From assembly GCF_000020665.1 (NCBI RefSeq), contig NC_011071.1, forward strand, positions 796,501 through 860,500: a stretch of 64,000 bases of DNA, written 5' to 3'. The DNA comes from Stenotrophomonas maltophilia R551-3 (GTDB lineage Bacteria; Pseudomonadota; Gammaproteobacteria; Xanthomonadales; Xanthomonadaceae). The position numbers and the translations under genes were made by a program. The notes beneath the pieces were generated by a model. It had not been told where the DNA came from. It did no database searches and was given only the letters and a program-made list of their open reading frames with translations. Positions 6,331-51,648 of this stretch are shown here, one piece after another (positions within the stretch are counted from its first letter, which is position 1; each line of letters begins with the position of its first letter).

Positions 6331-6368
6331 ACAAAAAGGACGCGGCCTTCGCCGCGTCCTTTTTGTTT
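6331..6368. terminator. Bidirectional intrinsic terminator
   Basis: AAAAAGGACGCGGC pairs with GCCGCGTCCTTTTT around a CTTC tetraloop. A-runs and T-runs flank the stem, so it can end transcription of both msrA (from the left) and tal (from the right). Confidence 0.85.
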
Positions 6369-6386
6369 GATCCTGCAGTGCTTTCT

Positions 6387-6410
6387 GTAGAGCGGAGCCA
6401 TGCTCGGCTC
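6387..6410. repeat. SMAG-type monomer
   Basis: A single GTAGAGCGGAGCCATGCTCG hairpin arm with GTAG at its left end. It lies between the two long hairpin elements of this intergenic region. Confidence 0.7.
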
Positions 6411-6468
6411 AGAGCAAGCGAAGCGCGCGACCCGCTTTGCTCTTCTTTCTTTCATCCGTGGCGGGCGG

Positions 6469-6700
6469 CCGCCGGAATCTGTCGAAGGCAGGGTGGGCAG
6501 GCTGTGCAGGGGCGTGAGCCGCATGGGCCCGAGGCATGCCTCGGGCGGGTTGGGCAGGACGCCCAACCCCGGTCTTGCCGTGTGCGCAGGACAGCGCACA
6601 CGAGCAAGCGGCGGCCAAGCCTCCAGGGACGGATTCACGGCGTCTCCCGCGAACCCAACCCGCCCGACCCAGCGCGGCTTTTGCTTTAGCAGTCAGTCGA
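6469..6700. repeat. Long hairpin element, copy B (inverted, rearranged)
   Basis: It carries the family core in the opposite orientation to copy A: AAGCCTCCAGGGACGG then ATTCACGGCGTC near 6616-6643, with the flank ATCTGTCGAAGG at the left and a GGCTTTTGCTTTAGC-type flank at the right. The arms are less regular, and three smaller hairpins lie inside (around 6529-6546, 6549-6570 and 6580-6602). This suggests internal rearrangement or nested insertions. The rest of the interval 6090-6758 holds no gene I can support. Confidence 0.6.
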
Positions 6701-50079: not shown

Positions 50080-51171
50080 ATGGGTATCAAATGCGGCATC
50101 GTCGGCCTGCCCAACGTCGGCAAGTCGACCCTGTTCAACGCGCTGACCAAGGCGGGCATCGCCGCGGCCAACTTCCCGTTCTGCACCATCGAGCCGAACG
50201 TCGGCATCGTGCCGGTGCCGGATCCGCGCCTGAACGAGCTGGCAGCGATCATCAACCCGCAGAAGGTCATCCCGACTGCGGTCGAGTTCGTCGACATCGC
50301 CGGCCTGGTCGCCGGTGCCGCTAGCGGTGAAGGCTTGGGCAACAAGTTCCTGGCGCACATCCGCGAAGTCGATGCGATCACCCACGTGGTGCGCTGCTTC
50401 GAGAACGCCGACGTCATCCACGTCAACAACAAGGTCGACCCGATCTCGGATATCGAAACCATCGATACCGAACTGGCGCTGGCCGACCTGGACAGCGTCG
50501 AGAAGGCACTGAACCGTGCCGAGCGCGCCGCCAAGGGGGGTGACAAGGACGCGGCGGCGCGCAAGCCGGTGCTGGCCAAGCTGCAGGCGGCGCTGTCCGA
50601 CGGCAAGTCCGGTCGTTCGGTCGGCCTGGACGAGGAAGAGAAGGCGCTGGTGCGCGATCTGTTCCTGCTGACCCTGAAGCCGGTGATGTACATCGCCAAC
50701 GTGCTGGAAGACGGTTTCGAGAACAACCCGCACCTGGATGCCGTGCGCGCGCATGCCGCCGCTGAAGGCGCGCAGGTGGTGCCGGTGTCGGCCGCGATCG
50801 AAGAAGAGCTGTCCCAGCTCGACGACGAAGACCGCGATACCTTCCTGGCCGACCTGGGCCTGAGCGAGCCGGGCCTGAACCGCGTGATCAACGCGGCCTA
50901 CAGCCTGCTCGGCCTGCAGACCTACTTCACCGCTGGCGTGAAGGAAGTGCGTGCTTGGACCGTGCGCAAGGGCGCCACCGCCCCGCAGGCTGCCGCTGTC
51001 ATCCACACCGACTTCGAGAAGGGCTTCATCCGCGCTGAAACCATCGCGTATGACGACTTCATCAAGTACAAGGGCGAAGCCGGCGCCAAGGAAGCCGGTC
51101 GCCTGCGCCTGGAAGGCAAGGAATACCGCGTGCAGGAAGGCGACATCCTGCACTTCCGCTTCAACGTCTGA
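50080..51171 (+). CDS. ychF: Ribosome-associated GTPase/ATPase YchF
   Basis: An Obg-family NTPase of 363 aa that prefers ATP. The G1 motif [14 protein letters not shown] is near residue 9, with G2/G3 in [21 protein letters not shown] near 70. The noncanonical G4 NVLED occurs near 205, and the C-terminal TGS domain ([18 protein letters not shown]) is near 285. It binds ribosomes and affects stress responses and translation initiation choice. The ATG at 50080 begins the canonical [11 protein letters not shown]. Confidence 0.97.
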
Positions 51172-51234: not shown

Positions 51235-51345
51235 TGGACAAAAAAACACCACGTTGCGAAACGCTTGCGGTGTGATGTTCGCCGGCACTTGTCCACAGCA
51301 AACTCCCATCGCTTTCCACGTCGGATGTGGAAAACCGCGCGGCGG
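51235..51345. repeat. DnaA-box-like array, unit 1
   Basis: Starts TGGACAAAA. It contains TTGTCCACA (51289-51297) and, 37 bases on, TGTGGAAAA (51326-51334, i.e. TTTTCCACA on the other strand). A palindrome TTTCCAC-N7-GTGGAAA spans the second box. Confidence 0.75.
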
Positions 51346-51348
51346 CCT

Positions 51349-51408
51349 GTAGAGCCGAGCCCACGCTCGGCTCAGGTTGGCATCAGCCGAGCATGGGCTC
51401 GGCTCTAC
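51349..51408. repeat. SMAG-type dimer inside the DnaA-box-like array
   Basis: GTAGAGCCGAGCCCACGCTC faces its complement, ending GCTCGGCTCTAC. It separates unit 1 from units 2 and 3 of the array. Confidence 0.85.
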
Positions 51409-51427
51409 AAGGCTTGCCCGTGTGGCG

Positions 51428-51540
51428 TGGACAAATTTTCACCACGCTCCGAAACGCCTGCAGCGCAACACTCGCGCCCACTTGTCCACATCAAGTTCCC
51501 ATGGCTTTACACGTGCTGTGTGGAAAACCGCGGCAATGCC
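51428..51540. repeat. DnaA-box-like array, unit 2
   Basis: Starts TGGACAAAT. It has TTGTCCACA (51482-51490) and TGTGGAAAA (51519-51527), again 37 bases apart. The palindrome is slightly decayed (TTTACAC-N7-GTGGAAA). Confidence 0.75.
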
Positions 51541-51648
51541 TGGACAAAAAAGCACCATGCCTTGAAACGATTGCCGTGCATGGCTCGCGCCCGCTTATCC
51601 ACACCAAACCCCCATCGCTTTCCACGCGCGATGTGGAAAACCTGCGGA
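51541..51648. repeat. DnaA-box-like array, unit 3
   Basis: Directly follows unit 2. It has TTATCCACA (51595-51603), an exact consensus DnaA box, and TGTGGAAAA (51632-51640), 37 bases apart, plus TTTCCAC-N7-GTGGAAA. No gene is seen in 51172-51660. Confidence 0.75.

Follow-up and report, generated by a model that had tools for sequence, protein, structure and literature searches.

DARS-like DnaA-box units in tandem beside ychF of Stenotrophomonas maltophilia R551-3

The array downstream of ychF

The window, by which we mean the whole 64-kb stretch of the S. maltophilia R551-3 chromosome that was analysed, carries an array of three diverged units downstream of ychF (Table 1). The six DnaA-box-like sequences that the initial annotation had placed here, as a forward and a reverse box per unit, were all found, and the distance of 37 bp between the starts of the two boxes is exact in all three units. 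The pair is real, but it does not amount to the whole unit, since a third box, overlooked in each unit, lies between the two and forms the DARS-like pair. The layout of the unit is F-14-F-5-R (F and R, forward and reverse boxes; numbers, base pairs between them), i.e. TTRTCCACA is followed after 14 bp by a weaker box of the same orientation and, after another 5 bp, by TGTGGAAAA on the other strand. In the window units, the middle boxes, CTTTCCACG and CTTTACACG, are weak DnaA boxes. In addition, a 15-bp AT-centred, Fis-like palindrome begins 53 bp ahead of the outer forward box of every window unit, its start being 76 bp from box II. Compared with unit 1 over 101 bp, unit 2 shows 74% and unit 3 77% identity.

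Table 1 Features of the array and its surroundings, in window positions.
Feature	Position	Strand	Remark
ychF (GTPase)	50083..51171	+	usual neighbour of the array in Stenotrophomonas
Unit 1, Fis-like AT-centred palindrome GGACAAAAAAACACC	51236..51250	+	4/6 fixed positions of GnnYAnnnnnTRnnC, by eye
Unit 1, outer DnaA box TTGTCCACA	51289..51297	+	counterpart of DARS box III
Unit 1, middle DnaA box CTTTCCACG	51312..51320	+	counterpart of DARS box II; 14 bp past the outer box
Unit 1, inner DnaA box TTTTCCACA	51326..51334	-	counterpart of DARS box I; head-to-head with the middle box, 5 bp apart
Inverted-repeat hairpin, interval of units 1 and 2	51349..51411	.	outside the unit proper; begins GTAGAGCCGAGCCCACGCTCGGC
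Unit 2, Fis-like palindrome GGACAAATTTTCACC	51429..51443	+	5/6 fixed positions
Unit 2, outer DnaA box TTGTCCACA	51482..51490	+	
Unit 2, middle DnaA box CTTTACACG	51505..51513	+	
Unit 2, inner DnaA box TTTTCCACA	51519..51527	-	
Unit 3, Fis-like palindrome GGACAAAAAAGCACC	51542..51556	+	4/6 fixed positions
Unit 3, outer DnaA box TTATCCACA	51595..51603	+	
Unit 3, middle DnaA box CTTTCCACG	51618..51626	+	
Unit 3, inner DnaA box TTTTCCACA	51632..51640	-	
Small convergent ORF, 96 aa	51661..51951	-	lipoprotein-like signal by eye

The hairpin between units 1 and 2 is presumably of the S. maltophilia SMAG/REP family type. Among 13 three-unit arrays, 12 have units 1 and 2 spaced by 160-195 bp, and in those 12 the spacing of units 2 and 3 is 112-115 bp; the first of these spacings differs between strains. 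If the small convergent ORF is real, the array lies between two 3' ends, those of ychF and the ORF, and does not precede a gene. No sigma-70-like promoter was found between positions 51100 and 52000, and a reading of the window array as a promoter was dropped for this reason. A reading as RNA is unsupported because the matches in Rfam were all below threshold, namely microRNA hairpin models on the REP-like hairpin and a partial sX6 beside ychF. Searches of plasmid and phage DNA with the array or its masked core gave no match, the masked-core query consisting mostly of N and thus carrying little weight.

Exact TTWTNCACA occurs four times in the window compared to 0.64 expected from dinucleotide shuffles, none of 100 shuffles reached four, and all four sites fall inside the array; the outer boxes of units 1 and 2 (TTGTCCACA) deviate from this motif. 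The exact pair TTRTCCACA-N28-TGTGGAAAA is found three times in the genome of 4,573,969 bp, each time in the array, and its reversed control not at all. The array lies outside any origin context, as the initial annotation had proposed: the dnaA domain is at C1:533 and the array at C1:847.7-848.1 kb, so that the adjacency to dnaA/dnaN that marks oriC is lacking.

Copies in the genome and in related bacteria

We used a sequence profile built from 54 units, which included the three of the window and left out five other units of the same genome. The search of this genome returned eight long units at five loci with E-values from 9e-19 to 3e-10, at 847.7-848.1 kb (the three window units), 1544.9-1545.2 kb (two units) and 1804.9, 2720.0 and 3274.1 kb (one unit each). 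The next matches had E-values of 0.039, an antisense overlap of the array, and 0.17, such values being rough for models of this kind. All five units outside the window have the F-14-F-5-R layout, with an AT-rich palindrome-like stretch upstream, and the neighbours at the four other loci are phoH/HlyD, prephenate dehydrogenase/ABC transporter, CDP-alcohol phosphatidyltransferase/methyltransferase and a gene for a TPR protein. As to whether the unit is syntenic and single-locus, a check suggested in the initial annotation, synteny is good within the genus, but the unit family is not single-locus since diverged units of the same anatomy occur at four more loci in the genome.

The exact pair was found at no fewer than 118 loci in a scan of public genome contigs. 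The search pattern had no requirement for a middle box, and this box could be scored in 153 of the units, three more lying too close to a contig end. A simple rule recognised a middle box in 99 of the 102 units whose loci bear the label Xanthomonadales, compared to 7 of 51 from other loci; the box was absent from 47 of the 153 (44 of the 51 and 3 of the 102), or from 48 by a slightly different rule. With the profile at E 0.01 or better, we obtained matches in 159 of 199 genomes of the order, 61 of 66 of the family, where weak matches may be classical cores, and 18 of 18 of the genus, and five of the 66 same-family genomes had no match at this threshold. The two families rich in units (f1 and f11) are Xanthomonadaceae and Rhodanobacteraceae, as inferred from named contigs that bear the exact pair. 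On our best reading, the long-spaced, multi-copy variant occurs chiefly in these two families. Three genomes of f11 (G034, G040 and G070) had 7 to 13 profile matches each, several of them clustered within a few kb, suggesting local amplification.

The array lies downstream of ychF in Stenotrophomonas, with this gene within the examined stretch at 15 of 20 loci (our own locus counted). In the examples examined, the locus varies by genus: accD is the neighbour in Rhodanobacter and one relative and an SDR gene in Dyella, and the Xanthomonas loci are at a transporter/glutathionylspermidine-synthase-like pair, 3-hydroxybutyrate dehydrogenase and miaB-phoH, the phoH site being common to Xanthomonas and our own genome. 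The relative positions of the loci are kept in five complete same-genus genomes, where the ychF array lies at 0.175-0.213 of the chromosome; the locus near 0.72 is missing from one of the five. The ychF array has an arm position of 0.37, fairly near oriC, and 62 of 72 loci in 20 complete genomes, counted by eye, are at arm position 0.5 or beyond.

As a separate observation, the F strand of the unit is opposite to the replication fork at 64 of the 72 loci, the Stenotrophomonas ychF array being the main exception. This tally of orientation and position left out the 9 weakest of 114 rows (E 3e-7 to 0.0098), and for orientation the replichore ends were placed half-way, with rounded lengths for 9 of the 20 genomes. 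We did not count the orientation bias as evidence because the loci are non-independent, the units C-rich on one strand and the replichores approximate, and because E. coli DARS1 and DARS2 differ in orientation, judging from their coordinates.

Box spacing, palindrome and comparison with E. coli DARS and datA

Among 68 head-to-head TCCACA/TGTGGA pairs with gaps of 0-24 bp in eight complete genomes, 40 have a gap of exactly 5 bp, and the remaining 24 gap sizes share 28 pairs with at most four at any one gap; a reversed control pattern, with the same gaps allowed, yielded 43 matches. The spacing on the other side of the middle box falls into two classes. When 0-25 bp were permitted between the first two TCCACA cores, 82 of 120 genomes of the order matched and, among the 150 matches listed, 49 had a spacing of 29 bp (gap of 3 bp), 96 of 40 bp (gap of 14 bp), three of 39 bp and two of 41 bp, so that the classical 3-bp and the long 14-bp gaps account for 145 of these 150. 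The three-core pattern was found in 177 of 377 genomes of the class, with no match for the reversed controls, and 146 of the 150 matches listed were at 29 bp (3-bp gap), the rest being at 31, 35, 36 and 44 bp. The pattern misses the units of the window, whose middle boxes end in CACG. Beyond the order, 16 genomes gave a profile match at E 1e-4 or better in a search that covered 232 genomes altogether, and a classical core is present at 11 of their 16 loci.

Conservation within the unit was assessed by pairwise identity among 44 Stenotrophomonas units. It is 98% for the middle-box core TCCAC, 71% for the palindrome, 70% for the 14-bp spacer, 39% for the 5-bp spacer and 36% for the DNA after the unit.

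Our own genome also has one classical core, TAACGCACA-3-TTATCCACA-5-TGTGGATAA (F-3-F-5-R), at C1:4056437, with a weaker box III and a palindrome-like GGCGATTTTTTGACC that begins 78 bp before box II. This copy sits directly upstream of priA with a MatE transporter gene on the opposite side (locus L175, about 6340-6470). The same neighbourhood was confirmed in two genomes of f11, which gives three genomes with the classical copy directly upstream of an identified priA. The priA-linked copy is possibly the ancestral one of the group, and a role in priA expression as part of a promoter is possible.

In most exact-pair units, the 15-bp palindrome begins 52-57 bp ahead of the outer box. Counted from box II, its start is at -77 to -79 in 22 of 29 classical units, nine of the 22 coming from loci picked by a profile that includes the palindrome, and 45 of 54 long units have it between -76 and -79; among classical units found by the box pattern alone, the figure is 13 of 18 at -77 to -79. 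Since these distances are alike in both forms, box I, box II and the palindrome appear to be fixed, and box III to be shifted outwards by 11 bp. Classical cores in the class at large often have an AT-centred palindrome (GGTCAWWWWTTGACC at best) 77-79 bp from box II as well. The palindromes were compared with the Fis consensus GnnYAnnnnnTRnnC (PMC8682772, in part). The genome encodes a Fis homologue with 49% identity over residues 21-97 (E 1.2e-20), and its DnaA shares 55% identity with the E. coli protein and has retained the GRDHTTVLHACR motif in its DNA-binding domain. A convincing IHF site was found in none of the eight long units and the classical copy; WATCAANNNNTTR occurred at one mismatch in a single unit, as two overlapping matches that both cover a DnaA box, and otherwise at two or more mismatches.

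For comparison with E. coli, we took the definition of DARS from the available part of PMC5742627 and applied it to all eight long units. Boxes I and II in opposed orientation are described as characteristic of DARS and functionally essential (PMC10380432, in part), and box III as stimulatory (PMC5742627 and PMC10380432, both in part, also for the box arrangement). We measured DARS1, in the bioD-uvrB intergenic region, as TTATCCACT-5-TGTGGATAA-3-TGTGTATTA, which reads F-3-F-5-R on the other strand. The window units share with it three DnaA boxes, the orientation of box I against II and III, and the 5-bp gap between I and II. With DARS2, located 5' of mutH, they share the head-to-head core with its 5-bp gap; DARS2 uses Fis, and the window units have a Fis-like site. 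However, the gap between boxes II and III is 14 bp in the window units compared to 3 bp in both E. coli loci, and a Fis-like site at -78 was sought in DARS1 and DARS2 and not found. DARS2, of 455 bp, moreover needs IHF (PMC5742627, in part), whereas the window units are without a convincing site for it; according to the same partial source, DARS1 is active in vitro without added factors. The classical cores of the class have the same three-core pattern, the window units carrying 11 bp more between II and III. The head-to-head boxes I and II at 5 bp are thus present in the long units, but the 3-bp spacing of II and III, found only in the priA-linked copy, is not, which is why we describe the units as DARS-like and do not assign them to DARS proper. 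The literature on DARS and DnaA boxes in these genera that could be searched, at listing level, contained no report of the long-spaced, multi-copy form.

Like datA, the units are a non-oriC cluster of DnaA boxes. datA relies on boxes 2, 3 and 7 plus an IHF site, and the available part of PMC10380432 describes no head-to-head 5-bp pair for it; an IHF site at set spacing between essential boxes, as in datA, was not found in the units. From the initial suggestion of a DARS- or datA-like locus, the architecture favours the first half, owing to the 5-bp head-to-head pair, the third box on the side of box II and the classical-core copy elsewhere with a similar palindrome; the second half is unsupported, no convincing IHF site having been found in the units.

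The 14-bp spacer may hold a further box. Across 88 distinct spacers of the order, the DnaA box (TTWTSCA; A, G or T allowed at box position 3) is matched by the same-strand frame at offset 3 at a mean of 5.12 of 8 positions, compared to a shuffle mean of 2.39 (sd 0.12), and none of the five remaining frames on this strand exceeds 3.64. In the profile set, 48 distinct spacers scored 4.06 at offset 3 and 3.88 at offset 2 (shuffle 2.34), and for the five other units of our own genome the averages were 5.2 (offset 3) and 5.0 (offset 1). No such box is kept by the window units, whose offset-3 frames score only 2, 3 and 1 of 8 in units 1 to 3. Where present, such a box would give F-3-f-2-F-5-R, with an added low-affinity site for a DnaA protomer. 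Three loci in rumen proteobacterial MAGs, one of them labelled alphaproteobacterial, have a perfect TTATCCACA within the 14-bp spacer, separated by two bases from the outer box and by three from the middle one (L015:460-560 on the minus strand, L016:2523-2622 on the plus strand, and L061). Their layout is F-2-F-3-F-5-R with an AT-centred palindrome at -54 from the outer box, and they are a possible intermediate between the two spacing classes.

Proposed role and its rivals

We consider that the array probably represents three tandem copies of a DARS-like platform, in a long-spaced, multi-copy variant, that would recharge ADP-DnaA to ATP-DnaA. On sequence grounds, the DARS-like architecture of the units is well supported; DnaA binding and recharging are inferred from it. 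The mechanism, known from E. coli where two such sites are described, would operate as follows. ADP-DnaA would bind to the head-to-head pair with the AAA+ domains facing each other, upon which ADP would be released, and the departing apo-DnaA would take up ATP, so that the level of ATP-DnaA would increase ahead of initiation through these loci. At the palindrome, Fis or a protein like it may bend or touch the complex. The extra 11 bp, approximately one helical turn, or the length of a 9-bp box and 2 bp more, may hold box III in the same phase and, among many relatives, may accommodate an additional DnaA protomer. Several features speak against the DARS-like reading: no convincing IHF site was found in the units although DARS2 needs IHF, the palindromes of window units 1 and 3 match only four of the six Fis positions and have no counterpart at -78 in DARS1 and DARS2, the classical copy may act in priA expression, the middle boxes of the window are weak, the gap between II and III is 14 bp instead of 3 bp, and the offset-3 box is absent from the window units.

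Pure titration, in which strong boxes soak up DnaA without a catalytic role, seems unlikely to us. It would suit the two near-consensus boxes per unit, the multiplied copies and the place of the window array fairly near oriC, and parts of the E. coli literature indicate that DnaA binding alone may matter. However, titration requires no fixed geometry, and two families have preserved box order, orientation and the 5-bp gap despite changes in the letters of the spacer; moreover, most loci in the 20 complete genomes lie away from oriC.

We give little credence to a datA-like site, at which ATP-DnaA lined up head-to-tail on the outer, hidden and middle boxes would be driven to hydrolyse ATP. The degenerate same-strand box in the long-form spacer would fit such a row, and the resulting gaps of 3 and 2 bp resemble those of cooperative low-affinity boxes (PMC8682772, in part). 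Yet datA needs its IHF site at a set distance (PMC10380432, in part), which was not found in the units, the head-to-head pair is described as a hallmark of DARS, the window units have no extra box, and offset 3 is barely above offset 2 in the profile set.

Sites for another dimeric regulator, or promoters of neighbouring genes under DnaA control, are likewise very improbable. A protein other than Fis could bind to the conserved palindrome, but the cores are DnaA boxes in the layout of E. coli DARS; the classical copy upstream of priA in three genomes would agree with promoter control, but the neighbours of the long units vary by genus (ychF, accD, SDR, 3-hydroxybutyrate dehydrogenase, miaB-phoH, dsbC-xerD) and the window array is downstream of ychF, with no promoter-like site. 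An ordinary dispersed REP-like repeat with chance box-like words is the least credible, for in spite of the tandem arrangement, the several copies per genome, with up to 13 profile matches in some on the Rhodanobacteraceae side, and the REP-like hairpin that separates units 1 and 2, our own genome has only 8 units at 5 loci, these loci keep similar positions in the five complete genomes of the genus (one lacking one locus), where a mobile repeat would show many copies at variable, unrelated sites, and conservation is concentrated in boxes and palindrome. The occurrence at dozens of unrelated loci that the initial annotation had named as speaking against its proposal was thus not observed.

The DARS-like reading can be carried further, in a form that we regard as speculative. 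The DARS of Xanthomonadaceae and Rhodanobacteraceae might have been rebuilt into an ancestral priA DARS plus up to a dozen longer ones, many of them four-site F-3-f-2-F-5-R; the added low-affinity site would tie reactivation to the ATP-DnaA already present, and the spread along both arms at fixed distances, with serial copying by the forks, would make the supply of ATP-DnaA graded and position-coded over the cell cycle.

DARS-like sequences have already been described from many proteobacteria (PMC10380432, in part). Should the units function in the way their layout implies, DARS would be present in a large bacterial group in several copies and with altered spacing, and this would separate the fixed parts of DARS, the head-to-head pair at 5 bp, from changeable ones such as box III. 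The palindrome near -78, common to the classical and long forms and absent from E. coli DARS1 and DARS2, is a second testable clue. The natural variants in copy number and position would offer a means of separating titration from switch models of initiation control. The group concerned includes plant pathogens and a hospital opportunist, and our results suggest that several chromosomal sites may contribute to the tuning of replication initiation in these bacteria.
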